Below, one piece after another: positions 38,441 to 60,670 of a stretch of DNA of 64,000 nt (position 1 is its first letter; each line of letters starts with the position of its first letter). The DNA comes from Sphingomonadales bacterium (GTDB taxonomy: Bacteria; Pseudomonadota; Alphaproteobacteria; SMXS01). The stretch spans positions 1 to 64,000 of the forward strand of contig JALHLV010000017.1 in the NCBI GenBank assembly GCA_022844405.1, written 5' to 3'. A program made the position numbers and the translations under genes. The notes beneath the pieces are model-generated. The model did not search any database. It saw only the letters and a list, made by a program, of their open reading frames with translations, and was not told the DNA's origin.

Positions 38441-39520
38441 CTACTCCATCCCCTCGACCGGCAGGCGCTGGGCGCGCCAGCGGAGCATGCCGCCGGCCAG
38501 GTTGGCGACCTTGCCGAAGCCTTCCTTGTCGAGCATCACCGCCGCCTGGGCCGAGCGCGCACCGGACCGGCAGACCGTCACCACGGGGCGCGCCTTGTCG
38601 AGCGACGCGGCTTTCTGCTTCAGTTCGCCCAGCGGTATCAGCACCGCGCCTTCCACATGGCCGAGGATGCCGTTGAACTCGCTCGGCTCGCGCACGTCGA
38701 CGATCTGCACCTGGGCATGGTGCTCCTCGAGCCATTCGGGCTGCAGCTCCCACAGGCCCGCATAGGTATAGGTCAGCGGCGCCCAGTCGGGCTCGGCCAC
38801 GCTGGGGTCGGTGAGCGCGGCGCCCTCAGGCTCGCCGCAGCGCAGGTTGGCGGGCACGGCGATGTCGATCTTGTTGGGGTGCGGCAGGCCCAGATTGCGC
38901 ATGTAACCGGCGAAGTCGGCCTCGCCGATGTCCTCGCCCAGGCGCGGGTTGAACAGCTTCTCCTCGGCTACGCTGGTGACCGTCGAGCCCTTATAGTCAT
39001 GGCCCGGATAGAGCAGGCATTCGTCGGGGAGACGGAAGATGCGGTCGTGCACCGAGCGGTACATGGCCGATGGATCGCCCTGCTGGAAGTCGGTGCGGCC
39101 GCAGCCGCGGATCAGCAGGCAGTCGCCGGTGAACGCCATGGAATTGTCGTCGAGCACGAAGGTCGAGCAGCCGCTGGTATGGCCAGGCGTGGCGATCGCC
39201 GTCAGGCGGCGGTTGCCGAACGCCAGTTGGTCGCCGTCATTGAAATAGACGTCGGCTCCCTGCACGCCCGAGCGCGCCGACACGGCGATCCGGCTGCCCA
39301 GCCGCTGCCGCAGCAGCCAGCCGCCGGTAACATGGTCGGCATGGACATGGCTCTCGATGGTCAGCTTCAGGTCGAGGCCCAGTTCCTCGAGCAGCGCCAC
39401 CTCGCGGCGGACCTGCTCGAATACCGGGTCGATCAGCACCGCGTCGCGGCTGCGCGGATCGGCCAGCAGATAGGTGTAGGTCGACGACTGCGGATCGAAA
39501 AGCTGGCGGAAGATCAGCAT
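38441..39520 (-). CDS. persulfide dioxygenase fused to a rhodanese domain
   Basis: 359 aa. The N-terminal metallo-beta-lactamase domain of ETHE1/persulfide-dioxygenase type has the mononuclear iron site motif ESHVHADHVTGG (about 56-67), TPGHTSGCST, and FTGDCLLIRGCGRTDFQQGD, with the later LLYPGHDYKG. After a linker (about 210-250) comes a rhodanese domain with VDVREPSEFN and the catalytic loop CRSGARSAQA. Persulfide dioxygenase oxidises glutathione persulfide to sulfite; the rhodanese may transfer sulfane sulfur, as in CstB/Blh-like proteins of sulfide oxidation. No sulfide:quinone oxidoreductase gene is nearby. Confidence 0.9.
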   Translation of the reverse strand: MLIFRQLFDPQSSTYTYLLADPRSRDAVLIDPVFEQVRREVALLEELGLDLKLTIESHVHADHVTGGWLLRQRLGSRIAVSARSGVQGADVYFNDGDQLAFGNRRLTAIATPGHTSGCSTFVLDDNSMAFTGDCLLIRGCGRTDFQQGDPSAMYRSVHDRIFRLPDECLLYPGHDYKGSTVTSVAEEKLFNPRLGEDIGEADFAGYMRNLGLPHPNKIDIAVPANLRCGEPEGAALTDPSVAEPDWAPLTYTYAGLWELQPEWLEEHHAQVQIVDVREPSEFNGILGHVEGAVLIPLGELKQKAASLDKARPVVTVCRSGARSAQAAVMLDKEGFGKVANLAGGMLRWRAQRLPVEGME

Positions 39521-39616: not shown

Positions 39617-42600
39617 TCAATCGCCGGTGATGCTGTTGGTGGCGCTGTTGCCGATCGACGTGGAGCCGATGTTGTTGCCGCGGATGGTGAACGAGCTGCC
39701 GGTGCTGGCGCCGTTGATGCTGCCGCCGGCGACCAGGCCGATGCCGATCGTCACGTTGTCCACGGTCGACGATACCGTGACGCCGGTGTTGGTCTGGACG
39801 TTGAGGACCGCCGACGACGGATGCTGGAATGTGCCCGTGTCGAGGATCAGCTCGTTCTCGGCATAGTTGCCGGTCGCCCGCGCCAGCACGTTGTTGCCGT
39901 TCACCGCGATGGCGCTGTTGTCGACGCCGCCGGTGCCCGAGAGGTCGTCGACGCCGATGGTGACCGGCTCGGCGGCGCCGCCGATCGTGGCGGTAACGGT
40001 CGATGGTGTCTGGCTGCCGGTGTTCGACTGGTAGTTGAGCACCACGTAGTCCACGCCGGTCGTCGAGGCGAACGGCGCGGCATTGGAGATCGTCGCGCCG
40101 CCGGCGGCGCTTGCCTGCAGCGTGGCGCCGGCCGAGGTCGTCATCGAATTCAGCGCGACACTGCCGCTGGCGGTGGCTAGCAGATCGTTGGAACTCACGG
40201 AGACGGCGCCGTTGAGCACCGCGCCCGCGGCGTCGTCGAAGGTGGCGCTGATGTCCACCGTGTCGATGTCGGCGGTGATCGCGGCGCCGCCTAACACCTG
40301 GGAGCCGATCACCTGGGAGTTGATCAACTGCGACGTCGCGTCGCTGGCGGCGCCAGCGCGGAGGCTGATGGTGTTGCTGGCCCAGAAGCCGCGGGCCGTG
40401 GACTCCACCAGATTGTTGTCGACCGTGACGGCGTCGCCGCTGGACAGGGACGTGATGTCGATTCCCATCCTGGACGATACGATGTCCGACGTGATCGCGA
40501 CGCTGTCGCCCGACCGCTGCGAGTTGACGATGTTGAAATCGCCGTTGGCCGTCGGCAGGCTGGCCAGCGGCGCCGGCGCGGCCGTGCCGCCGACGATGGT
40601 CGCGCCGGAGTTCACGACCAATTCGTTGGTGACGGTGCCGCCGATGGCTGTGCCCGAAGTCGTGTTGCCGGATACCGACGTGGCGCTGGCGCCCGCGTTG
40701 GCGGCGCTGTCGACGGTGATGTTCAGGTTGACGCCGGTGACGGTCGCGCTGGCCGTACTGCCCTCCGCGACCGTCTGCTGCGACGCGACCGACGCACTGG
40801 CGCCCGCGACGCCGAGCGGATCGTCGACCGCGGCGCCGGAGAACAGGCCGAGCCCGTTATAGGCGCCGTGGATGGTACTGCTGGCGCCGACCACGTTGTT
40901 GTCGACGGTCAGCGTGCCGCTGTTGAGCGTATCGACCACGGTCTGGATCGTGGCGCCGTTCACGCTCGTGCTCACCGAATCGCTCACCCCGAGCAGGCCC
41001 TGCGGACCCTGGGCGTTGATCACGCCGTAATCGGCGTTCACGATGACGCGGCTGGCGCCGTCGATCTTCGTGTCCGGCGTCGTGTCGTCCGAGCTGCTCG
41101 ACAGGACCGTGCCCTTCGACACCAGGATGTTGCTGGTGTCGTTGACGGTGCCGACCGCACCGATCGTGTTGCCGTTCAGATTGATGGCGTTGCCGGTGAT
41201 CACAGTCGCCCCGGCACCGTCGGCGTCGACCAGGATGGCCGCGTTCGCGACGTTGGCGGTGACCGTGGGACTGCTCGCCGACTGCTGCACGTTGCCGACG
41301 AAAGCCTGGCCGTCATTGCTGACGAAATCCAGATCCAGCCGGTTCTTCGATGTGTTGGCGCCGGCCTGGGCGACCAGCTTGTTGCCGCTCTCCGAGATGG
41401 TGGTGTTCGAGATGGTGTCGGCGGCATCGACGATGGTCTGGATGCGCACCGGATCGCCCGGCGTGCCGGTGAGTTCGGCGATGACGCTCAGCGCGTTGAG
41501 CTGGTTCGAGCCGATGCCGAACGTCGCGTCGTTGAAGGTGATCTGGCCCGTGGGACCCAGCAGCGTCGCGGTCGGCGCGTTGGCGCCGGGCTCGACGTCG
41601 GGCAGCGTCGTTCCGGTCGCCGCCAGCGTGTTGACCACGGTATTGACCTGGGCGAAGGCGCGAATGTCGTTCTTGTCCTGCGTGATCGTCGCACCGGTGA
41701 TGTCGCCGTCGACATCGCCGCCGGGGCCGTTCATGTCGATGATGGACCGGACGGCGTTTACCGTCGCCGACAGGCCGGCATCGCTGTCCTCTCCAATAGC
41801 CTGCTGGTTGGACGCCAGCATGGCGATCGGGCCGTTTTGCGCCACATCGCCGACGCCCGCGCCGGTCAGGTCGTAGGTCTCGACATTCAGCACGATGCCG
41901 TTGGTCGCGTCGTTGCCAATCGCCTGGGCCATGATCGAGTTGCCGTCGATCTCGGCCACGCTGCCTTGGCCGAAATCGGTGCCGGCCGTGCGGATGTTCA
42001 TGCTGAGATCGGAATTGTCGAGATCGACACTGACGCCGTAGCCGCCCCCGGCATCGGCCAGATTCTCGAAATACTGATCGTTGACCAGCGACACCTCACT
42101 GCCGACATCCACCTCGAAAAAGTTGATGACGAGGTTGTTCGCGGCGGCCGCGGAGGTCCGCGTCAGGGTCTGGGTCTGGGCAGTTTCGGTGATCGTATTG
42201 CTGGCCAGGTTGACCCGGCCCGACGCCAGCAGCTTGTTGCCGTTGATCTGCACGACCACGCCGAGCATGTCGAACGCGCCGCTTTCGACCTCGACGCTGA
42301 TGTCGCCGTCATACTGGTCCACCTCGATGCCGGCCGACTTGCCGTCATTGTCCTCGTCGGCCACCGTCTGCACGTTGACCAGCGACGGCGAGCCGTTGAG
42401 CGAGGTGGTGGTGGCGCCGCCGACGGTGATCGCCGACGTGGCCTGGTTCAGGGTGGCGGCCGAGGTTCCCTTGTTGCCGGATGCCGTCACCTGGGTGTTG
42501 GACATGTTGGTGAGCGACGAACCGGCGCGCAGCCGGATGAAGTCGCTCTGGTTCGGCTCGTCGCCGGTGACCGCGGTGACGATGGCGCCTTCCAGGTCCT

Positions 42601-44842
42601 CGACGGACTGGTCGTTGAGCAGCGCGAAGCCCGCATCGACGGTCGTGACCAGCGCCGAACCCGTGCGGTCGACACTGGCCGCCGGTAGATCGAAGGTGCC
42701 GTCCGAGATGGACAAGCCGGTGAGGGTGATCGAATTGGTGGACGCTTCGACCAGATTGGCCCAGACGAAGGCGCTCATCGCATTGTCGTCGACGTTGACG
42801 GCGGCCTTGCTGAAGGTGTTCGGGAATGCGTCCACCTCGATCAGCGTGGTGTCGGTGGACGAGGTCAGCGTGGCCGACAGCTGCGCGCCGTCCTCCACCG
42901 TCTGGGAATTCACCAGACCGACCGTGCCGCTGGAGCCGCCGCCCGCCAGCGAGTTGGCGTCGATCGTGATGCTGGATTCGCTCGACAGGTTGCCGATCGC
43001 CTGGGCGTAAATCTGGTTGTCGGAGACGCTGACCGTCGCATCGGTGATCGCCGAGCCGACACCGCCATTGCGCGCCGTCCAGGAAATGATCCGCGTATCG
43101 ACGGACGAAACCGCGCCGCCGCCGTCCAGGACCTGGGCGTTCAGCACGCTGAAGCCGGCCTCGACGGCGCCCGAGGTGGTCACATGGTTGACCGAGATGG
43201 TGGGCGCTGCCGCGCCGCCCAGGCCGGTGACCGTATTGCCCTGATCGATTTCGAGGCTGCTGCTCTGCGAGTTCCCGACGGCCTCGGCATAGATGAAATT
43301 GCCGTCGACATAGATGCCGTCGGCCGGCACGGTGCCGGCCGCGCCGGCATCGCCGGCGGCGCGCACAAACAGCTCGCTGCCCGTCACCGTGGCCGTCTGC
43401 AGCCCTTCGGTATACTGGGCGTTGTTGATCGCCGCGATGCCGCTGAGGCTGGTGGCCTTGGTCACGTCGATCAGGTTGACGGCCTCGCTGCCGCTGGAGG
43501 TCGCCGCGATCGAGTTGCCCGTGGCGTTGATCACGCTCGAGGTCATGTCGGAGACGTTGACGTTGAGGTCGCCGTTGGTCACCGTGGCGGTCACCGCGAC
43601 GTCGCTGTACTGCACGTTCTGCACGAACAGGTCGGCCGCCACGCTGGCCACGTCCGGCGCGCCCACGGTGAACGAGTTCTGCTGGCCGCCGGCCACGGCG
43701 TTGCCATCCAGGCTGACGTCGTCGAGCAGGACGCGGTTCAGCGAGCTGTTGTCCGACGCGGCCGCCAGGATCGAGTTGCCGGTGAAGTCGATGGTGGTCG
43801 TGTTCAGGTCGGCGACGGCGACGTCATCGGCCAGATTGGCCGACGTCTTGTTGGTGTTGCCGATCTCGATGGTCGAATCCGTCACCGACGCGGTGAACGC
43901 CACGCCGCCCTGACTGCCCTGGACGCTGACCGCGCCCGCCGAGCCGTCGAGCTTGGTGAAGCCCACGTCCTTGCCGTCGATCAGGTCGATGTCGACCAGG
44001 TTGGCGGCCTCGTTGCCGGTGAACTGCGCCCGGACGGTGCTGTTGGTCAGGTCCAGGTTGACCCCGACCAGGCTGGTCGGGGTGCCGTCGACGACCGCCG
44101 ACGAGCCGATCCGCGATCCAGACACCGCCGCGCTGGCGCCCGTCAGGTTGATGTTCTGCTGCGCCGAGGTGGCGAGCAGGCCGCCGGACACCACCAACTC
44201 GTTGGGCGCGCCCGGGTTGGTCAGCAGCGACGAACCGACGTCGGCATTGGTGAACAGCGGATTGAGCACGCCGGAGATTTCGGTCGACGCCAGATTACCG
44301 CTGGCGTCGGACAGGATCCCCAGATTGTCCAGGATGACCGAGCTGCCGGTGCCCAGATCCTCGAACGCCGAGTTGATGAGGCCGTTGGTGGTCGAGGCGG
44401 TGATGCTGACGGCCGCATTCGTCTGCGGCGCGGTGGCATAGGCGCCGCCGGTCACCACCTTCAGGTCGACGAAGGCGCCCGGATCCGGATCGTCGACATC
44501 GGTGTACAAGCCGTTGACGATGATCGGATCGACGGCGGCGTTGCCGACCGCCAGCGAGAAGATGGTGTTGTAGTCCGCGAGGGCGACGATCGGACCGCCC
44601 TCGACGTCCGCGGGGGTGAAGGCCGGCGGCATGACCAGGGTCACATTGGCCGAACTCGCCGTCACCGACGTGGTGCTGTTCGACTGCACCGTGCCCACGC
44701 CGTGCGAGAAGCTTGCCGCCGCCAAGGTCGGCGGAATCACGCTCAGATCATAGGTCAGCGTGGTCGCCTGGGCGCCGGAGACGCCGGCCGCGGACAGCAG
44801 CGCGAACACGCTGGCCGACGTAAGGATGCGAGAGTTGTTCAT
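39617..44842 (-). CDS. giant (1,741-aa) secreted Asn/Gln-rich beta-repeat protein, adhesin/fibre-like
   Basis: Signal peptide with cleavage near GAQA-TT (residue 26). The mature chain has a strongly biased composition (Ala, Val, Thr, Ser, Asn, Asp; almost no Cys, Trp or aromatic cluster) and consists of about 18 imperfect units of about 60-110 residues. Each unit has a core like NxxxAxAxGNxxxN, e.g. SDNQIYAQAIGNLSS, DGNSIMAQAIGNDATNG, NGNNVLARATGNYAENE, RGNNIGSTSIGNSATN, alternating with a VxNxQ strand, e.g. GLVNSQTVED, ALLNDQSVED, LVNVQTVAD, FNIVNSQRSGD. N and Q at regular places and short strands suggest a stacked beta-solenoid or amyloid-like protein. It ends in a repeat with no autotransporter barrel, LPXTG or type-I secretion tail visible, so the export route is unclear. 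G-rich ribosome site (GGGGGGC) precedes the ATG. Function is inferred only. Confidence 0.8.
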   Translation of the reverse strand: MNNSRILTSASVFALLSAAGVSGAQATTLTYDLSVIPPTLAAASFSHGVGTVQSNSTTSVTASSANVTLVMPPAFTPADVEGGPIVALADYNTIFSLAVGNAAVDPIIVNGLYTDVDDPDPGAFVDLKVVTGGAYATAPQTNAAVSITASTTNGLINSAFEDLGTGSSVILDNLGILSDASGNLASTEISGVLNPLFTNADVGSSLLTNPGAPNELVVSGGLLATSAQQNINLTGASAAVSGSRIGSSAVVDGTPTSLVGVNLDLTNSTVRAQFTGNEAANLVDIDLIDGKDVGFTKLDGSAGAVSVQGSQGGVAFTASVTDSTIEIGNTNKTSANLADDVAVADLNTTTIDFTGNSILAAASDNSSLNRVLLDDVSLDGNAVAGGQQNSFTVGAPDVASVAADLFVQNVQYSDVAVTATVTNGDLNVNVSDMTSSVINATGNSIAATSSGSEAVNLIDVTKATSLSGIAAINNAQYTEGLQTATVTGSELFVRAAGDAGAAGTVPADGIYVDGNFIYAEAVGNSQSSSLEIDQGNTVTGLGGAAAPTISVNHVTTSGAVEAGFSVLNAQVLDGGGAVSSVDTRIISWTARNGGVGSAITDATVSVSDNQIYAQAIGNLSSESSITIDANSLAGGGSSGTVGLVNSQTVEDGAQLSATLTSSTDTTLIEVDAFPNTFSKAAVNVDDNAMSAFVWANLVEASTNSITLTGLSISDGTFDLPAASVDRTGSALVTTVDAGFALLNDQSVEDLEGAIVTAVTGDEPNQSDFIRLRAGSSLTNMSNTQVTASGNKGTSAATLNQATSAITVGGATTTSLNGSPSLVNVQTVADEDNDGKSAGIEVDQYDGDISVEVESGAFDMLGVVVQINGNKLLASGRVNLASNTITETAQTQTLTRTSAAAANNLVINFFEVDVGSEVSLVNDQYFENLADAGGGYGVSVDLDNSDLSMNIRTAGTDFGQGSVAEIDGNSIMAQAIGNDATNGIVLNVETYDLTGAGVGDVAQNGPIAMLASNQQAIGEDSDAGLSATVNAVRSIIDMNGPGGDVDGDITGATITQDKNDIRAFAQVNTVVNTLAATGTTLPDVEPGANAPTATLLGPTGQITFNDATFGIGSNQLNALSVIAELTGTPGDPVRIQTIVDAADTISNTTISESGNKLVAQAGANTSKNRLDLDFVSNDGQAFVGNVQQSASSPTVTANVANAAILVDADGAGATVITGNAINLNGNTIGAVGTVNDTSNILVSKGTVLSSSSDDTTPDTKIDGASRVIVNADYGVINAQGPQGLLGVSDSVSTSVNGATIQTVVDTLNSGTLTVDNNVVGASSTIHGAYNGLGLFSGAAVDDPLGVAGASASVASQQTVAEGSTASATVTGVNLNITVDSAANAGASATSVSGNTTSGTAIGGTVTNELVVNSGATIVGGTAAPAPLASLPTANGDFNIVNSQRSGDSVAITSDIVSSRMGIDITSLSSGDAVTVDNNLVESTARGFWASNTISLRAGAASDATSQLINSQVIGSQVLGGAAITADIDTVDISATFDDAAGAVLNGAVSVSSNDLLATASGSVALNSMTTSAGATLQASAAGGATISNAAPFASTTGVDYVVLNYQSNTGSQTPSTVTATIGGAAEPVTIGVDDLSGTGGVDNSAIAVNGNNVLARATGNYAENELILDTGTFQHPSSAVLNVQTNTGVTVSSTVDNVTIGIGLVAGGSINGASTGSSFTIRGNNIGSTSIGNSATNSITGD

Positions 44843-45148
44843 TGGTAGCCCCCCAAAAAAACTTCGGCCTCATTCCCCCTCAAGCGGATAACCCCGCTCC
44901 ATGCGCGCCGAAGTGATGGCCAGCTTCGCCGCACATTTGAAGTAAAACCATAACGGGTCCGTGAACGATAGACAACCGCTGATGGACGTTTTCATCAAGA
45001 CATCACAAAGCGGTAGCGGAATATGCCCGCGCGCGGATGGCCTGCGCCGGGACACCTGTGGCAGACTGGCGCGGAGGCTGGCGCTGTCCGCGGCCACCGA
45101 AGAACCAATCGCGCGCCGCCGCGTTAGCTCCCCGGAGGGAGCGGCCCG
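44843..45148. other. 306-bp divergent intergenic region, giant repeat gene / tamA
   Basis: No gene seen. The left end holds AAAAAAAC and the GGGGGG ribosome site of the leftward gene, the right end holds GGAGGGAG before tamA. A moderately AT-rich stretch (about 44935-45015) is the likely bidirectional promoter zone; I do not see convincing -35/-10 boxes or CtrA-type TTAA pairs. Confidence 0.5.
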
Positions 45149-47149
45149 GTGGCGACCAGCTCGGCGGCCATGCCGCCTACCAGACGGAGAAGGGTGATTC
45201 GGCCGGCCTTGAGGACAATCGCAATGATGGCGGGCGCCGTGCTCGTGCTGGCTGCCGGCGCGCCTGCGGCGCGCGCCCAGTCAACCATGGCGCAGCCCAA
45301 AGCGCCGGACGCCATAACCAAGGAAGAGAAAGAGACCGAGGAGGCCGACCGCAAGCAGCTCGGGGAAGAAACCCGGCAGCTCGACGAGGAGAAGAAGCAG
45401 GAGGAGGAGGCCGAGGACGCCAAACGCGCGGCCCGGGGGATGCCGTCTTATGCCTACCGGGTCGACATCAACGGCCTGGAGAAAACCGGCCTGGAGAAGT
45501 TGCTGAAGGACCGCTCGGACCTGATGCGGCTGCGCAAGGAAGAGCCGGCGTCGATCTGGGATCTGCGCGCCCGCATCCGCCGCGACATCACCGGCTTCGC
45601 CGACGTGCTGCGGTCCGAGGGCTATTACGGCGCGAAGATCACCTACGAGATCGACCGCAACGCCAAGCCGATCCGGGTCGCCATCACGGTCGAGCCGGCG
45701 GAGCGCTTCACCATCGGCGCCTACGTCATCGAGCTGACCGGCCCCGCCGCGTTGCCGCAGTCGGTGAAGGACGAGGCGCGGAAGATCGCCGAGGCGCAGG
45801 TCGGCCAGCCGGCGCGCAGCGAGACCGTGGCGCTGGCGTTCGGGAAGGTGATGGGCGAGCTGCCCCAGTTCGGCTATCCGCGCGCCAAGCTGGCGCTGCA
45901 GGACTTCAAGGCCGACCACAAGGACCGCAAGCTGACCGCCCGGGTGCGGATCGACACCGGTCCGCTGGTGCGGTTCGGCGAGATCAGGCTGGACGGGCTG
46001 GCGACGGTGAAGCCCGGCTATGTCATGAAGGCGGTCACCTGGAAGACCGGCGACGTCTATGACAGCCGCAAGATCGAGGCGTTCCGCCAGGAGCTGACCG
46101 AGATGAACCTGTTCGCCTCGATCCGGGTCGATACCGACGACCCGCTGCAGGGCGACCGGCAGCCGGTCAGGATCAGGCTGCTCGAGGCCAAGCACCGGTC
46201 GGTCGGCGCCACCGCGTCCTATTCCACCGTCAACGGCTTCGGCGGCTCGGTGTTCTGGGAGCACCGCAACATCTTCGGCGCCGGCGAGCGGCTGGTGCTG
46301 GAGCTGGAAGGCGACCAGAAGCTGGTGCAGTTCAAGGCCGACCTGACCAAGCCGCGCTTCCTGCGCAAGGACCAGAAGCTGCTGTTCGGCGCCGAGGCGG
46401 CGCGCGAGGATACCGACGCGTTCCTGGAATATCGCGGCGTGCTGCGCGCGGCGGTGGAGCGCGAGGTGACCCAGCGGTTGCGCGTGCGGCTCGGCCCGGA
46501 AGTGGCGTATCTCGACACCCGCGACGCCTTCGCGCCGTCGAAGAACTTCCTGGTCGGCCTGCCGGCCATCGTCACCTATGACCACAGCGACGACCTGCTG
46601 GACCCGACCAAGGGCTACCGGCTGGACGGCAAGGTGTCGCCTTATGCGGTGTTCGGCGACGGCAAGCACTTCGTGTCCATGGAAGGCACGGCCCGGGTCT
46701 ATTTCCGGCTCGATGACGGCGGGCGCTTCGTGTCGGCCAGCCGGGTCAAGGTGGGCATGCTGTTCGGCGCCGACGACATCAGCCGCGTACCGGCATCGAA
46801 GCGGTTCTATTCGGGCGGCGGCAGCTCGATCCGCGGTTACGGCTACCAGGCCATCGGCCCGAAAGACCCGGCAGGCGAGCCCATCGGCGGCATGTCGCTG
46901 TTCGAGGTCGGCACCGAGATGCGCATCAAGATCAGCGACACCTGGGGCGTGGTGCCGTTCTTCGAGGGCGGCAGCGTGTTCGACAGCGAATTGCCCGATT
47001 TCTCGCGCAAGCTGCGCTGGGGCGCGGGCATCGGCGTGCGCTACTACACCGGCTTCGGACCCATCAGGCTCGACGTCGCGTTCCCGATCAACAAGCAGCC
47101 CGACGACGACAAGTTCCAGATCTATGTCAGCATAGGGCAGGCGTTCTGA
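45149..47149 (+). CDS. tamA: TamA, outer-membrane translocation/assembly module subunit (BamA/Omp85 family)
   Basis: 666 aa from GTG 45149, chosen because GGAGGGAG lies 8 nt upstream. After a signal peptide (AAARAQ, about 43) comes a highly charged helical segment (58-96, Lys/Glu-rich coiled-coil-like), then three POTRA-like repeats (from YRVDINGLEKTGLEKLL), and a C-terminal 16-strand barrel with the Omp85 motifs RRFLRKDQKLLFGAE-type segments and FYSGGGSSIRGYGYQAIGP (the conserved (V/I)RGY-loop) and a C-terminal QAF. TamA inserts/assembles outer-membrane proteins together with TamB, which follows immediately (TGATG overlap at 47147-47151). Confidence 0.93.
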   Translation: MATSSAAMPPTRRRRVIRPALRTIAMMAGAVLVLAAGAPAARAQSTMAQPKAPDAITKEEKETEEADRKQLGEETRQLDEEKKQEEEAEDAKRAARGMPSYAYRVDINGLEKTGLEKLLKDRSDLMRLRKEEPASIWDLRARIRRDITGFADVLRSEGYYGAKITYEIDRNAKPIRVAITVEPAERFTIGAYVIELTGPAALPQSVKDEARKIAEAQVGQPARSETVALAFGKVMGELPQFGYPRAKLALQDFKADHKDRKLTARVRIDTGPLVRFGEIRLDGLATVKPGYVMKAVTWKTGDVYDSRKIEAFRQELTEMNLFASIRVDTDDPLQGDRQPVRIRLLEAKHRSVGATASYSTVNGFGGSVFWEHRNIFGAGERLVLELEGDQKLVQFKADLTKPRFLRKDQKLLFGAEAAREDTDAFLEYRGVLRAAVEREVTQRLRVRLGPEVAYLDTRDAFAPSKNFLVGLPAIVTYDHSDDLLDPTKGYRLDGKVSPYAVFGDGKHFVSMEGTARVYFRLDDGGRFVSASRVKVGMLFGADDISRVPASKRFYSGGGSSIRGYGYQAIGPKDPAGEPIGGMSLFEVGTEMRIKISDTWGVVPFFEGGSVFDSELPDFSRKLRWGAGIGVRYYTGFGPIRLDVAFPINKQPDDDKFQIYVSIGQAF

Positions 47150-50100
47150 TGGCGGAGGCGGCGATAGAGCACAAGGGCATGACGAGACGGCTGCGCATCC
47201 CGGCCATCGTGCTGGGCGGCCTGCTGCTGATCGTCGTCATGCTCTATGCGCTGGCGCGCGTGGGCGCGTTCAACGGCGTTATCGAGGGCCTCGTCGAGGA
47301 CGCCCTGAGCGATCGCGCGACCGGTACCGTCGCCACAGTCGACGGCCTCGATGGCGATCCGCTGTCGGAGATCGTCATCAAGCGTCTCGTCATCGTCGAA
47401 CGCCGCAAGAACACGGTGGTGGCCGAGGGTATCGTCCTGCGCTGGCGCCATCTGGGCCTGCTGGCGGGACGTGTCCGGGTCGAGGCGCTGACCGCCAGGC
47501 GGTTGCTGATCGCGAGGGCGCCGCCGGGCGCCCCGGACGAGCCGTTGCCCACCGAGCTGCCCAGATTGCCAGTCGACGTGCGGCTCGACCGGCTGAAGGT
47601 CGACGAGGTCCGCTTCGAGGGCTCGCCGACCGTGTTCACCCTGGTGGGCGCCGGCCGTTGGTCCCGCGATCCCGCCATAGAACTGCGCCTCGCGCTCGCA
47701 CCGCAGGATGCGCAGGGCGAATACGCCCGCCTCGCCGTCGACTACGACCCCGGCAAGGACCGGCTGGTGCTGGACGGCAGGCTGGTCAGCAAGGCCGGCC
47801 AGGGCCTGGGCGGATTCCTGTTCCCCGGCGAGCAGGGCGACATCTCGCTGGTGCTGGCGGGCCAGGGATCGGTGAAGAACTGGCGCGGACGGCTGGACGG
47901 GCTGAGCGGCGACACGACCATCGCCGCGCTCGACATCGCCGTCACCGACCGGCTGCATATCGAGGGGTTGCTGGATCCGCGCCCGTTCCTGCCCAGGGAC
48001 GAGATCAGCGCCCTGATCGGCGCGCCGCGCGTGGTCTTCGACCTCGGGCTGAAGGACGGCATGCCCGGCGCCTACACCGCCCGCATCGTCAACGAGGGCG
48101 CCGACATCCGCTTGGCGGGCAGCCTGGCGGACCGGAAGGCCATGCTGTCGCCGCGCTTCTCCATCATCTCCAATAACGCCGCGTGGTTCGCGCCGGTGCT
48201 GGACGGCTGGACCTACGGGACGGCCTCGCTGGCCGGTGCCGTGACCCAGACCGGTGACGGCCCGAACGTGACGGCGGCCATCGCCATCGACCGGCTCGCG
48301 GGTGACGGTTTCGCGGCGCGCAAGGCTTCCGGCAACATCAGCCTGTCCGCCATCGGCGCGGGCAAGGCCATGGTCTATGGGCTGGCCGGCAAGGGCGCGC
48401 TCGAAGGCGTCGACGCCGCCGAGCGGAACCTGCGCGCCGACTGGATGCTGGACGGACGTCACGACCCGGCGAAAGGCCGCATCTCCATCGCCAACCTGCG
48501 GCTTTCCGACGGCGGCTCGCGCATCGCCGCCAAGGGCGACGTGATCCTGTCGCCGCTGTCGGTGAAAGGCTCGGCGACCGTCGCCGTCGCCGATGTGGGC
48601 CGCTGGGTGGACGCGGGCGTGCGCGGCCGCGTCGACGCCGACGGCAGCTTCGAATGGCAGCCCGATTCGGGCCGGCTGATGGTAAAGGCGAAGGGCGCGG
48701 GCAAGGGTCTCAGGCTGGCCGATGCGCGCCTCGCCGCACTGCTCGGCCCGTCGCCGACGTTCCGGCTGGTGCTCGACGATCCCGCCGGCCGCGGCCAGGG
48801 TACGCTGGACGGCGCGGTCGCCGGCGCGCAGGTGAAGGCGCGCCTGAAGGGCCGGATCGGCGAGACCATCGACGCCGCCTATGAGGCACGCTTCGCCAAC
48901 GTCGCCAGCCTCACCGGCGACGGCGCGCTGAAGGCCTCGGGCCCGGTGACCGTGACTGGCACGCTGAAGGGCGACGCCGCGTCGCCCGACGTGACCCTGC
49001 GCGCGGCCTTGGCGCACGCCTCGCTGTCGGGCGTCAGGATCACCGACGTGACGCTGACCGCCGAGGCAGGCGACGTGGCCGGCGCGCCGCGCGGCCGGAT
49101 CGACGCCGCCTTCGCCATGGACGGCGAGCCGATGACCGCGGCGATCCCGTTCGTGTTCGACGAGAGCGGCGCCTGGCGGTCCGAACCCGTCGCACTCAAC
49201 GGCGAGTCGGCGAGCCTGTCGGGCGTGCTCGCCGCCGCGAGCCTGGGCGCGCCGATGACCGGCAAGCTCGACCTGCGCCTTTCGGGACGCGGCGTGATGA
49301 CCGCGCTGGCCGGCACGCCGGCGGCCGGATCCGTCAACGGTACCGTGCTGCTCGATCCGGAGGGCGAGGCGCAGGGGCTGCGCTTCGACCTGGCGGTGAC
49401 CATGGGATCGTTCGCCACGGGCCGGGAGTCCGCCGTCACCGTGGCCAGCGCGCGGCTCATGGGCGACGTCGCCATCGGCGAGGCGCTAGACGTGCGCCGG
49501 ATCACCCTGGACGGCAGGGACGTCACCTATGACCGCGCCAGGCTGGCCAGCCTGACCGCCACCATCACGCCGAGCGGCAACGGACTGGCACTTGCCGCCT
49601 CCGCCAAGGGCGAATTCGAAGGGCCGCTTTCCCTGTCGCTGAAGGGGCGCGCCGACCGCGCGCTGCTGGCGGCGCCCAACACCATTACCCTCGACAGCCT
49701 GAACGGCACCATAGCCGGCCAGAAGATCGCCCTGCTGGCGCCGGCCACGGCGGTGCTGGCGGAGGGCTACACCGATATCGGCCCGGTCCGGATGAGCTAC
49801 AACGGCGCGCCGCTGGAGCTGCAGGCGACGCTGCGGGACGGCGGCAGCACCGCCCGCCTCTCCGGCAAGGATCTGGACCTGGCGGCGTTATCGGCGCTGA
49901 CCGACGGCCAGGACGTGGCCGGCAGGCTGACCATCGACGGCGAGATCGACTTCACCAGCGGCGCGCCGCGCGGCAACGCCCAGCTCCGAATCGCCGGCCT
50001 GATCGTCGAGGACACGCTCGACCGCCGGCCCGTCGACGTAAAGGGCGGCGTGACGCTGGCGGACGGCCGGCTGAAGGGCGGGCTGACCCTCGACACCAGC

Positions 50101-51507
50101 AGCGAACGGGCGCTCGACGTGACACTCGACCTGCCGGTGGCGCGCGGCACCAAGGGTCCGTTCGCGCTCGCGGTCGAGGTCGACAAGCCGCTGACCCTGC
50201 AGCTCAAGGGCAACGCCGAGCTGGCCTATCTGTGGCCGCTGACCGGCGCCTATGAGCACATCCTGGGCGGCCGGGCGACGGTGGATGCGCGGGTCACCGG
50301 CTCGGTCGCCGATCCCACGCTGAACGGCAGCTTCGCCATCGCCGGGATGACCTACCGCAACCTGTCGACCGGCACAAAGGTCGAGGCGGCCAATGTGCGC
50401 TTCGTGCTCAAGGACAGCCTGCTGGAGCTGCCCGCGACCAACGCGACCGACGGCGGCAAGGGATCGATCGTGCTGTCGGGCTGGGTGAAGCCGCTGGCGC
50501 CGGGCGGCACGCAGGCCGACATCACCGCCCGGTTCACCAAGGCGCGCATCCTGAAGCTGCGCGACATGACCGCGCGCGCCACCGGCCAGATCCAATACAC
50601 CCAGGACAAGGACGGCGCGCTGCTCGAGGGCGAGGCCACGGTCAACGACGCCGAGTACACCCTGAACGCCAAGGCGTCGGACGACTTCGTCAGGCTCTAC
50701 GTGGTCGAGCTCAACCGGCCGCCGGGCCTGATCAGCTTGCCGGAGAAGCCGACCGAGCAAACCTTCAAGACCCGGCTGCGAATCGACGTCACCGCCGGCA
50801 ACCGCATCTTCGTGCGCGGCCGCGGTCTCGATTCCGAGTGGCGCGGAGAGGTCCGCGTGCGCGGCACCGCGGACCAGCTCGCGCTGCAGGGACGGGTCGA
50901 TCTGGTGAAGGGCGAGTTCGATTTCGCCGGCCGCAAATTCGTGCTGCAGAACGGCTCGCGGATCGAGCTGCTGGGCGGCACGGATCTCGATCCGGTCATC
51001 ACTGCCCGGGCGGTCTATTCGGTCACCTCGCTGACCGCCGAGATCCGGCTGACCGGGCGCGCCTCCAACCCGCAGATCAAGCTGTCGTCCAACCCGGAGA
51101 TGCCGCAGGACGAAATCATCTCCCGCGTGCTGTTCGGCCAGGGCAAGCAGAACCTGTCGGCGTTCGAGGCCGCCCAGCTCGCCGCCGCCGTCGCCTCGCT
51201 GGGCTCGTCGGGCTCGGGCTTCGACGTCATCGGCAAGCTGCGCGGCGCCTTCAGCCTGGACCGGCTGACTGTCGGCACGCTGGACCGCCCCGGCGCCCGC
51301 GACGAGGGCGGTGCCGGCAAGCCGGTGATCCGCGGCGGCAAGTACATCACCAAGAACATCTATGTCGAGATCGGCAGCGCCACCGAGGAGGAGGACGCCC
51401 AGTCCGCCTCGGTCGACATCGACCTGACCAAGCACCTGAGCGTCGGCACCGAGGCGACGACCAGCGGCAACCAGAAGTTCCGGGTCCGCTACAAGCTGGA
51501 TTACTGA
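47149..51507 (+). CDS. tamB: TamB, translocation/assembly module inner-membrane subunit (AsmA-like/DUF490)
   Basis: 1,452 aa. N-terminal membrane anchor (about 18-42, IPAIVLGGLLLIVVMLYALA), then a very long beta-helical AsmA-like/RBG-type body of repeating strands (GDLNG, GRxxL, VDGxL...), and a C-terminal TamB/DUF490 domain about 1,090-1,452 with RGRGLDSEWRGEVRVRGTADQ and SNPEMPQDEIISRVLFGQG. TamB spans the periplasm to TamA and, by current evidence, also carries glycerophospholipids to the outer membrane. Coupled to tamA by overlapping stop and start codons. Confidence 0.95.
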   Translation: MAEAAIEHKGMTRRLRIPAIVLGGLLLIVVMLYALARVGAFNGVIEGLVEDALSDRATGTVATVDGLDGDPLSEIVIKRLVIVERRKNTVVAEGIVLRWRHLGLLAGRVRVEALTARRLLIARAPPGAPDEPLPTELPRLPVDVRLDRLKVDEVRFEGSPTVFTLVGAGRWSRDPAIELRLALAPQDAQGEYARLAVDYDPGKDRLVLDGRLVSKAGQGLGGFLFPGEQGDISLVLAGQGSVKNWRGRLDGLSGDTTIAALDIAVTDRLHIEGLLDPRPFLPRDEISALIGAPRVVFDLGLKDGMPGAYTARIVNEGADIRLAGSLADRKAMLSPRFSIISNNAAWFAPVLDGWTYGTASLAGAVTQTGDGPNVTAAIAIDRLAGDGFAARKASGNISLSAIGAGKAMVYGLAGKGALEGVDAAERNLRADWMLDGRHDPAKGRISIANLRLSDGGSRIAAKGDVILSPLSVKGSATVAVADVGRWVDAGVRGRVDADGSFEWQPDSGRLMVKAKGAGKGLRLADARLAALLGPSPTFRLVLDDPAGRGQGTLDGAVAGAQVKARLKGRIGETIDAAYEARFANVASLTGDGALKASGPVTVTGTLKGDAASPDVTLRAALAHASLSGVRITDVTLTAEAGDVAGAPRGRIDAAFAMDGEPMTAAIPFVFDESGAWRSEPVALNGESASLSGVLAAASLGAPMTGKLDLRLSGRGVMTALAGTPAAGSVNGTVLLDPEGEAQGLRFDLAVTMGSFATGRESAVTVASARLMGDVAIGEALDVRRITLDGRDVTYDRARLASLTATITPSGNGLALAASAKGEFEGPLSLSLKGRADRALLAAPNTITLDSLNGTIAGQKIALLAPATAVLAEGYTDIGPVRMSYNGAPLELQATLRDGGSTARLSGKDLDLAALSALTDGQDVAGRLTIDGEIDFTSGAPRGNAQLRIAGLIVEDTLDRRPVDVKGGVTLADGRLKGGLTLDTSSERALDVTLDLPVARGTKGPFALAVEVDKPLTLQLKGNAELAYLWPLTGAYEHILGGRATVDARVTGSVADPTLNGSFAIAGMTYRNLSTGTKVEAANVRFVLKDSLLELPATNATDGGKGSIVLSGWVKPLAPGGTQADITARFTKARILKLRDMTARATGQIQYTQDKDGALLEGEATVNDAEYTLNAKASDDFVRLYVVELNRPPGLISLPEKPTEQTFKTRLRIDVTAGNRIFVRGRGLDSEWRGEVRVRGTADQLALQGRVDLVKGEFDFAGRKFVLQNGSRIELLGGTDLDPVITARAVYSVTSLTAEIRLTGRASNPQIKLSSNPEMPQDEIISRVLFGQGKQNLSAFEAAQLAAAVASLGSSGSGFDVIGKLRGAFSLDRLTVGTLDRPGARDEGGAGKPVIRGGKYITKNIYVEIGSATEEEDAQSASVDIDLTKHLSVGTEATTSGNQKFRVRYKLDY

Positions 51508-58224: not shown

Positions 58225-59538
58225 TCACTTCAGCAGGGCGGTATCTTCCAGGATCTGGATGACCACGCGGCGGTTGAGCGGCTCGGCGGTGTTGTCGCCG
58301 GTCTTCACGGCCGGCTGGCTTTCGCCGTACCACACCAGCGAGATGCGGTTCTTCGGAATGCCTTCGCTGACCAGCGCCTCCTGGACGACCACGGCGCGGC
58401 GCCGCGACAGATCCAGATTGTAGACTTCGCCGCCCTGGGCATCCGCGTGGCCTTCGAGCAGAAGGTTCGCGGCCTGGCCGGCCTTGGCGGCGGCCGCGGC
58501 GTCAGCGATCGTCTTCTGCGCTTCCGGCGTCAGCTGCGCGCTGGCGGTGGCGAAATAAACCGTGAAGGTGCTGGCCTTGGCGGGAGCCGGGGCTTCCGGC
58601 GGCGGCGGGGGCTCGGTCGGCGCGACGGCGACCGGAACGCCGGCCACGGAGGGGCACGGGTTGACGCCCTCGAAATTGACCAGCGGCCTCTCGTCGATGC
58701 CCGCCACCGAGCCGACCAGCTGCAGCACGCCCAGTTCCAGGGTGGTGCGGACGCCGAGCTGCAGCGGCTCCTGGCTCTTCATGCCGGCATTCACGTCGAC
58801 CAGCGTGTTCTTGAAGAACTCGAACACGTTGGCGGCGACTTCATAGCCGGTGATCTGCTTCTGGAGGCTGACGGTCTTGAGCACTTCCAGCGACGAGGTA
58901 TCGACGATGCGCAGGTCGACGGCGACGTTGACCGTGAACACGCGGCCCTTGGCGCCGATGCCGTCTACAGTCGCTTCCAGACCGCCCGAGTGCACGTTGT
59001 AGTTCAGCTCGGTGATGCCGCCGACGATGAAGTAGTCGGATTCGATGACCGTGCCGCCATAATAGGGCTTCCACGGAACCTTCTGCGTCCCGCCGGTCTT
59101 GCCGCGCACCTCATGCACCGAACCATCGCCCAGGTAGCGCCGGTCCAGGTAGCGCAGTTCCAGTTCGGTGACCTGGGTGTCGAAACGTTCCTGCAGCCGC
59201 ACCGCGTCGCCCAGCTTGCCGAGCGCCGACATCACCATGAGCGAACCGCCCTGGGTGATCGGGTTGCCGCCTTCCGATTCGCTGAATTTGCCGGTGTAGT
59301 CCTTCACGGTGCCGACCGCGACGCGAATCCTGTTGCGGCCGCTCTCGCGGATCTTCTGGGCCATGCACTGGAACGTACCCTCCAGCGGGGTGGTATTGTC
59401 GGTGACCGGAGGACCCTGAACGGTCGGCGCTTCGTCCGGATTGCGCTTGTAGTGATCGATGGACGCCATGCACCCCGTCAGCGAGATGATCGCTGCGTAG
59501 GTGACGATTTTTCTGCACCAAGTAAAGCCGGTCGTCAC
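58225..59538 (-). CDS. CsgG/HfaB-type export lipoprotein fused to a C-terminal OmpA domain
   Basis: 437 aa from GTG 59538, preceded by AGGGGG. This start gives a lipoprotein signal peptide with lipobox SLTGC (Cys23). The central domain (about 45-290) has CsgG/HfaB features: RIRVAVGTVKDYTGKF, GSLMVMSALGKLG, LQERFDTQVTELELRYL, DYFIVGGITELNYNVHSGG, GRVFTVNVAVDLRIVDT and LEVLKTVSLQKQITGYEV. After a Pro-rich linker (PPPPPEAP) the C-terminal about 115 residues form an OmpA/MotB peptidoglycan-binding domain (FTVYFATASAQLTPEAQK, GHADAQGGEVYNLDLSRRR, WYGESQPAV, PLNRRVVIQ). CsgG forms the outer-membrane nonameric pore of curli export; HfaB is its holdfast counterpart. The added OmpA domain would anchor the pore to peptidoglycan. 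Function in this organism is inferred. Confidence 0.85.
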   Translation of the reverse strand: MTTGFTWCRKIVTYAAIISLTGCMASIDHYKRNPDEAPTVQGPPVTDNTTPLEGTFQCMAQKIRESGRNRIRVAVGTVKDYTGKFSESEGGNPITQGGSLMVMSALGKLGDAVRLQERFDTQVTELELRYLDRRYLGDGSVHEVRGKTGGTQKVPWKPYYGGTVIESDYFIVGGITELNYNVHSGGLEATVDGIGAKGRVFTVNVAVDLRIVDTSSLEVLKTVSLQKQITGYEVAANVFEFFKNTLVDVNAGMKSQEPLQLGVRTTLELGVLQLVGSVAGIDERPLVNFEGVNPCPSVAGVPVAVAPTEPPPPPEAPAPAKASTFTVYFATASAQLTPEAQKTIADAAAAAKAGQAANLLLEGHADAQGGEVYNLDLSRRRAVVVQEALVSEGIPKNRISLVWYGESQPAVKTGDNTAEPLNRRVVIQILEDTALLK

Positions 59539-59598
59539 GATAGTCCCCCTCTTGCCCCTCGTTCCTCGGCTGGCCATTGGCCGGCCTGAACTGAGCGC

Positions 59599-60285
59599 CT
59601 AGTTCAGCGGTGCGCTGGCCGATTCGTTGAAACCGCAGGCCTCGCTGTTGTCGACCGATGCGGTCTGCGGGCTGTCCTGGTTGCCCTGATCCGAATTCAG
59701 CGCGACGTCGGAGGTCCCCCCGGACGAATTCATGCCGTCGACGCTGCCCGAAATGCTGGAATTGTCCACCGTCGCGGTCTGGGGGCTGCCCGTGTTGCCC
59801 TGCGAGGTATTGCTGAGCTGGCCGGCCTGACCCACCGCCGACGACTGCCCGGTGGAACTGCTGTTGGCCGAATTGCCGTCACCGTTGCCGGGAGACGATC
59901 CGTTGGTGGACGTGCTGCTGATATTGCCGGTGGCATCGGCGCCGATATTGCCCGGCATATCGATCACCGGCGACGAGGCGCTGCTGCTGACGCCGTTCGA
60001 CGCCGAATTGCCGATCGCCGACGCCGTCAGGTTGCAGTTGATCTGATCGCCGGCGATGTTGGTCGTGTAGGTGTTGTTGATGTTGGTGTCGAACCCGTCG
60101 TAGAAGCCGCCCTTCTTCTTCTCGCGAAGGTCGACCAAAGAGCCCTTGGCAATCTTGTCGTTGGCCGTATCGAACTGCCATGGGCGATTCTCGAGGAATC
60201 CGTTACCGAAGGCGGCGGATGCGCCTACGACGACGGTAACCACCGAACATACGGCGGCCGTCATCAACTTGTTGGCACGCGTCAT
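59599..60285 (-). CDS. secreted Asn/Gln/Ser-rich protein with curlin-like repeats, candidate subunit
   Basis: 228 aa from ATG 60285, with a very strong GGAGGGGGG ribosome site. Signal peptide (residue about 26, SAAFG-NG). Conserved-looking N-terminal mature segment GFLENRPWQFDTANDKIAKG, then NCNLTASAIGNSASNGVSSS, then low-complexity Ser/Asn/Gly, and two tandem units QGNTGSPQTATVDNSSISG (162-180) and QGNQDSPQTASVDNSEACG (200-218). The Q-G-N plus V-D-N spacing resembles curlin repeats. Two Cys (84, 217) could pair. Encoded first in the operon with the CsgG-OmpA lipoprotein (60 bp away), it is the best candidate for a secreted fibre subunit or HfaA-like anchor. Confidence 0.75.
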   Translation of the reverse strand: MTRANKLMTAAVCSVVTVVVGASAAFGNGFLENRPWQFDTANDKIAKGSLVDLREKKKGGFYDGFDTNINNTYTTNIAGDQINCNLTASAIGNSASNGVSSSASSPVIDMPGNIGADATGNISSTSTNGSSPGNGDGNSANSSSTGQSSAVGQAGQLSNTSQGNTGSPQTATVDNSSISGSVDGMNSSGGTSDVALNSDQGNQDSPQTASVDNSEACGFNESASAPLN

Positions 60286-60670
60286 AGAACCCCCCTCCAA
60301 AACCCCCACGGCTTCGTTAGCGTCGTAAGGCATATCATTGCGTGCTTCGAGCGGCAATGGAATTTTTCGTGTCAGCGCACCCGCGGCCAGCCCCTAACAG
60401 GAGAATATCGCTGAGTTTTTTTCAAACCGGTGCGGCCGCCGCAGGCCCCGGCGGAGGACCTGCGGCGGGACCCGGCCAGTGGTTACGGAATCACAACAAT
60501 CCAGCAGGTCTCGCCGGCGGCGAAAAAATTCCAAGCCAGTCAGACGGAAAGATCGCAGGGATGGCGCCCGCGTCCCCATCGCGCACCTTGCGCCATCGCC
60601 GGAGCCTGCTGGTTGATTTGTCGCTCGGCGGGTCGCACATACACCGCAACGGCTTTTTTTGGGGAATCGC
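60286..60670. other. 385-bp divergent intergenic region, subunit-like gene / SNase-like gene
   Basis: Contains the leftward leader with GGAGGGGGG ribosome site, a short GC-rich palindrome CGCAGG/CCTGCG and a T7 then GGGG run just before the rightward ATG (60654-60665). No gene or recognised binding site. The likely promoters of both operons lie here but -35/-10 elements are not clear. Confidence 0.5.

Follow-up and report, generated by a model that had tools for sequence, protein, structure and literature searches.

The giant protein and the genes around it

The window, that is, the whole stretch of DNA analysed here (64,000 nucleotides of contig JALHLV010000017.1 from a Sphingomonadales bacterium), encodes a giant repeat protein between a metallo-beta-lactamase-fold/rhodanese gene and the oppositely read tamA and tamB, and further along an operon for an outer-membrane pore (Table 1).

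Table 1. Features of the window and their positions
Feature	Position	Strand	Remarks
Metallo-beta-lactamase-fold/rhodanese protein	38441..39520	-	PF00753, PF00581; other-side neighbour of the giant
Giant repeat protein	39617..44842	-	ORF with ATG start, 1,741 aa; 20 units of 65-103 aa
C-terminal unit 20, residues 1670-1741	39620..39835	-	Best-conserved unit of the giant family
Signal-peptide-like N-terminus, residues 1-26 (MNNSRILTSASVFALLSAAGVSGAQA)	44765..44842	-	Read from sequence; hydrophobic stretch ending A-Q-A
TamA (Omp85)	45149..47149	+	PF01103, E 1.7e-53; divergent neighbour of the giant, marks the conserved site
TamB	47149..51507	+	PF04357, E 4.5e-56
Secreted-looking Pro-rich protein, 422 aa	56916..58184	-	Next gene after HfaB-OmpA
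CsgG/HfaB-type outer-membrane pore lipoprotein with C-terminal OmpA domain (HfaB-OmpA)	58225..59577	-	450 aa, lipobox LTGC
Small secreted-looking N/S/Q-rich protein	59599..60357	-	ENxxWQF motif, two conserved Cys; directly upstream of HfaB-OmpA

An earlier note on this DNA, made from the letters alone, had described the giant as a secreted-looking repeat protein without Cys, LPXTG motif or autotransporter barrel and belonging to no family that could be named, and these descriptions held. The protein has a signal-peptide-like start, the position of which is kept in the alignment of the family A1 members, and it is rich in Thr/Ser/Ala/Asn with no Cys in 1,741 aa. LPXTG motifs, RTX GGxGxD repeats and the NPNG/NPNL two-partner-secretion motif are absent from its sequence, and no C-terminal barrel domain was found by Pfam search. 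Sequence searches of Pfam, NCBIfam, PHROG and PDB with the window giant and its family, and of PDB with the family profile, gave no meaningful match. Scattered matches of single family members (AmpC, E 0.0017; SecDF, E 0.0022) look like chance. With neither a Pfam barrel nor NPNG/NPNL, an autotransporter or two-partner passenger was rejected, as was an RTX type I substrate from the lack of GGxGxD.

The note had counted about 18 repeats. Sixteen full-length giants from the same genus and family (1,673-1,835 aa) align colinearly over their whole length, with invariant columns that are mostly N, Q and G, and 20 conserved Gln positions split the giant into 20 units of 65-103 aa at a mean spacing of about 86 aa. 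When the units cut at these positions were compared pairwise as profiles, the mean pair probability was 80% and 88% of the pairs exceeded 50%, against means of 0.25% for column-shuffled and 0.59% for reversed units, with no control pair above 50%. The matches between units thus stand above both controls, and therefore the repeat observation is confirmed with a count of 20 units; the note had let its claim depend on periodicity exceeding that of a shuffled protein, and it does so. Motif counts agree with the regular N and Q positions and the alternating VxNxQ strand that had been described: the [VILAS]-x-N-x-Q type occurs 12 times in the window giant (shuffles: mean 1.6, max 8), and the extended ladder N-x-hydrophobic-x-A/S-x-small-x-x-N is found 191 times in the 16 giants against 13.9 (sd 3.7) in shuffled sequences. 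The proposed core NxxxAxAxGNxxxN recurs in a relaxed form, N...A.A..N...N, which was seen six times in the window giant (shuffles: mean 0.12, max 2), and in its strict form only twice (mean 0.00, max 1). Plain N-N spacing in the window giant alone is not significant against shuffles, so the repeat is degenerate and profiles are needed to see it. Unit 20 is conserved above the rest (mean 0.67 vs 0.43-0.57 in the remaining units of the family) and falls inside the region in which the window giant shows sequence similarity to a Variovorax protein and to genome G087; it is possibly an end cap or an export or anchoring signal.

The AlphaFold2 model of residues 1140-1741, for which the window sequence was combined with 12 homologous stretches of related loci, contains beta strands only (pLDDT 84.9, pTM 0.85), while that of residues 463-811, built from 7 sequences, was poor (pLDDT 60), and therefore the fold was tested for the C-terminal third only. 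Foldseek found no match to the model in the PDB at E <= 0.001. A structural aligner run on Foldseek's own top chains, and thus a second look at the same matches, placed curli CsgA first (8c50, Z 12.2, but with an rmsd of 8.4 over 175 residues) and Vag8 second (Z 11.1, rmsd 3.3 over 188 residues), followed by other beta-helix proteins. Because the all-beta model aligns best to CsgA and beta-helix proteins, it is likely that the C-terminal third is a beta-solenoid as modelled, though not necessarily one of the curlin type, in line with the beta-solenoid-like appearance that had been proposed.

The HfaB-OmpA pore and its recurrent partners

The HfaB-OmpA gene of the window was recognised because a distant relative of the giant, on a Variovorax plasmid, is encoded immediately downstream of a gene with a CsgG domain. 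This gene and the small one next to it, 14-15 kb from the giant, had been overlooked in the note, as had the recurring order of the genes, the paralogues within a genome and the divergence of giants at a fixed site. The window protein belongs to the CsgG family (PF03783, E 1.3e-17, 64.2 bits vs a Pfam cut-off of 20.8), its OmpA domain, a peptidoglycan-binding domain, matches PF00691 (E 8.1e-21), and against the holdfast HfaB model NF037935 it scores E 2.1e-68 and 230 bits, below the cut-off of 300, with positions 3-262 of 264 aligned. The HfaB-OmpA fusion is kept within the family of the window genome (f1), where it was found in seven of the eight genomes with clear giants, once truncated at a contig end; it was not detected in G003, a giant-bearing draft of 110 contigs. 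The small protein upstream, about 228 aa if counted from the probable ATG near 60285, has no family match and none to the HfaA model NF037934, which as a positive control finds the HfaAs of holdfast loci at E 1e-21 to 1e-25, and in profile comparison with HfaA it reached 0.44%. Its homologues lie directly upstream of HfaB in f1, G087, G496, one G804 locus and the Variovorax plasmid. The 422-aa protein, likewise without a family match in Pfam or NCBIfam, is kept in the same place at four related loci (L055, L133, L134, L166) and was seen only in f1.

At eight related loci, with genes called by a simple GC3-based script, a giant lies downstream of HfaB on the same strand (G005, G002, G007, G514, G496, two G804 loci and the Variovorax plasmid). 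In G005 and G002 the order on one strand is small gene, HfaB, 422-aa gene and giant, so that in their genus (g1) the 422-aa gene sits between HfaB and giant; in G007 no other clear same-strand gene comes between HfaB and the giant, and in f13 (G496, G514 and twice in G804) and on the Variovorax plasmid it follows HfaB directly. The small gene precedes HfaB in G496, at one G804 locus and in Variovorax; in G514 and at the second G804 locus no clean reading frame for it was found. The series of small gene, HfaB and giant is repeated within f1, among other Alphaproteobacteria and on the Variovorax plasmid. In G087 the small-HfaB pair is present, and two short relatives of the giant (362-404 aa) lie about 1.7 kb off in divergent orientation. 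For the greater part of their length, the f13 and Variovorax giants match the f1 giant profile at a probability of 98.5-99.9% (reversed controls, at most 0.2%). In a protein tree (FastTree), the giant-linked HfaBs form one clade with local support of 0.996, which under midpoint rooting is sister to the HfaBs of holdfast loci.

Another branch of the HfaB family is represented by the G024 genome with five HfaB-like pores, three of which stand in a row with a third type of small gene (L132, 2916-14050), and beside these are proteins of about 380 aa with repeated TATAVGNN-like motifs.

Divergence at fixed sites and distribution

Giants occupy recurrent genomic sites. One lies between the metallo-beta-lactamase/rhodanese gene and tamA in this window and in G005, with one of the two flanks present in G001, G002, G003 and G004; copies of the metallo-beta-lactamase/rhodanese protein beside giants in G001, G003 and G005 are 89-92% identical. 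The giants adjoin tamA divergently (44842-45149 in the window; L054, L173 and L175; G002, G004 and G005) and are not orthologous by sequence. A second g1 site, from the 422-aa gene to a phosphofructokinase-like gene, holds a giant in G005 and G002 and is empty in G000, G001, G003 and G006 (the names of the phosphofructokinase-like and carboxyltransferase-like neighbours were assigned by eye). In G003 the C-terminal end of a giant gene is seen at a contig edge beside the metallo-beta-lactamase/rhodanese gene (L024, 1460-1605), the rest being cut off by the assembly.

Within g1 the giants are 35-60% identical, whereas HfaB is 84-92% and TamA 70-88% identical between the species. At the tamA site, the giants of G005 and G002 share no more than 34-36% identity with the window giant and do not group with it, while the TamA proteins next to them are 84% and 70% identical to that of the window. 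Replacement or very fast divergence explains such differences at a fixed site; that giants diverge so strongly where their neighbours remain 70-92% identical points to diversifying pressure on an exposed surface. Rapid variation is what an adhesive or recognition surface would be expected to show when it meets other cells, phages or predators.

The own genome of the window (3.78 Mb in 41 contigs) has a second giant on another contig, 38% identical to the first, and up to eight copies per genome were found. In a search of 60 relatives the giant family was detected in nine genomes, all from f1 and nearly all from g1. With the f1 giant profile, giants were found in 4 of 289 genomes of the class, all of the same genus, and short matches in one more; the f13 giant occurs in two of 61 genomes sampled from its genus, and of 385 class genomes 6 gave a match to the small protein, a weak one in one case. 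As so few class genomes carry giants or the small protein, the gene set is patchy. A scan of genome contigs with a single giant protein gave no relatives; the C-terminal alignment brought up 11 loci, every one of them in metagenome-assembled genomes (MAGs) with poor names. Public MAG records with the f1 giant family (L032, L033-L036, L038, L041) are named 'Rhizobium sp. Q54' and 'Candidatus Kuenenia stuttgartiensis', and these names look wrong, since a single genus cannot properly bear all of them. No relatives of the giant turned up among viral contigs and phage records, and no description of the giant/HfaB/small-protein gene set was found in the open-licence literature.

Proposed export of the giant and comparison with known systems

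We consider it likely, at roughly 70%, that the giant is a surface-displayed or released beta-solenoid which would leave the cytoplasm by a Sec-type signal peptide, thread in the unfolded state through the outer-membrane HfaB/CsgG-OmpA pore that this window encodes, and then fold on the outside as a long rod, its coils stacked and its conserved Asn and Gln forming ladders. The small two-Cys protein is probably an anchor, a nucleator or an export factor, and the pore is probably held to peptidoglycan by its OmpA domain. Export through the pore is proposed because of analogy: HfaA and HfaD of Caulobacter need HfaB, a protein resembling CsgG, for their surface location (PMC6707917), and CsgA can pass CsgG only while it is unfolded (PMC10192328). 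The proximity of the giant family to a CsgG/HfaB-type pore gene suggests a curli/holdfast-like channel that handles proteins much bigger than the known curli subunits. However, since the known CsgA homologues reach 529 aa (PMC3521004), a passenger of 1,741 aa is a large extrapolation. Also counted against pore export are the distance of about 12-15 kb between the giant and the pore operon in this window, the position of the second giant of this genome on another contig, and the giants of the G003 draft, where the pore was not detected.

Linkage to CsgG/HfaB, a predicted solenoid with CsgA as the best aligned chain and conserved N/Q positions would also be seen if the giant were a functional amyloid subunit polymerising like curli, with solenoid ends stacked head to tail. 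This we regard as unlikely, because the curlin motif N-x5-Q is depleted in the 16 giants (48 vs 77.7 in shuffles), Q-x10-Q and X6QXGX2NX10 likewise stay at or below their shuffle counts, the giant matches nothing in Pfam, the curlin repeat included, and within the genus the length, unit order and C-terminal unit are fixed, as in a defined rod and not in an open-ended subunit. Somewhat less likely still is an S-layer-type lattice protein exported otherwise, for example by type I secretion: the annotation of the Variovorax relative QRF63268.1 as 'S-layer family protein', the size and the Thr/Ser/Ala/Asn-rich, Cys-free composition of the giant and a weak structural alignment of the model to RsaA (Z 7.2) speak for it, but it is at odds with the missing RTX motif, with the recurrent HfaB linkage and with several divergent paralogues per f1 genome, which misfit a single lattice protein. 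It is improbable that the neighbouring TamA-TamB exports or inserts the giant and that the HfaB linkage is incidental; giants are divergent from tamA in G000, G002, G004 and G005, but most giants are not beside it, those of G007, f13 and Variovorax adjoin hfaB, and the giant has no C-terminal barrel domain by Pfam. A polysaccharide-active beta-helix enzyme is very improbable, as many of the best aligned chains are indeed polysaccharide lyases and tailspikes, but in the giant the conserved positions, largely N, Q and G, are distributed evenly across the 20 units, and it matches no Pfam enzyme family.

A rod exported through the HfaB pore, long and with a variable surface, would suit an adhesin or a recognition surface. 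We give about even odds to a wider proposal, in which a branch of HfaB/CsgG with its own two-Cys partner would be dedicated to giant (1,000-1,800 aa) beta-solenoids, carried in some lineages as swappable, fast-diversifying cassettes at fixed sites and forming an undescribed recognition or adhesion repertoire. If giants pass the HfaB pore, export of the curli/holdfast type would not be limited to small curlins and anchors and could build rods of 1,700 residues, and at least one HfaB branch would be specialised for giants. For proteins at present labelled hypothetical or 'S-layer family', this would supply a partner, a gene set and a cultivable carrier (the plasmid of Variovorax paradoxus VAI-C).

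Among known systems, the passengers of beta-helix autotransporters (Vag8, pertactin) share with the giant the beta-solenoid fold of the best structural alignments; unlike them, the giant has no C-terminal barrel found, no sequence similarity to them and another gene neighbourhood. The HfaABD holdfast anchor of Caulobacter is alike in bringing together a small secreted protein, a CsgG-like HfaB pore and an N/Q-rich surface protein. It differs in that the small protein of the window lacks an HfaA match, the HfaB of f1 carries an OmpA domain, and the giants are multi-copy, fast-evolving and more than four times the length of the 374-position HfaD model (NF037936). That model has no match at E <= 1 in the window giant or in five genomes, and finds genuine HfaD in L115 at E 1.8e-109; against a profile of holdfast-locus HfaDs, a thin set of 5 sequences (Neff 1.7), the giant reached 0.07-0.40%, with units no better than reversed controls. 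Curli (CsgA/CsgB via CsgG) resemble the system in the CsgG-family pore, the predicted beta-solenoid, the conserved N/Q positions and the alternating small residues, whereas the units of the giant are about 86 aa long vs 23 aa, its length is about 1,700 aa and its ladders are N-x8-N vs N-x5-Q. With the HfaD model and the curlin motif tests both failing, the giant is by these tests neither an HfaD nor a curlin. The nearest counterpart is QRF63268.1 (plasmid CP063168 of Variovorax paradoxus VAI-C), which at 1,566 aa and about 25% identity, and from the Betaproteobacteria, has the same unit grammar and the same C-terminal unit and is preceded by a small ENxxWQF protein and HfaB; it is a true relative of the window giant. 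By sequence and model, the system is best described as CsgG/HfaB-linked with candidate giant solenoid substrates, and by analogy it may work like the holdfast anchor or curli.
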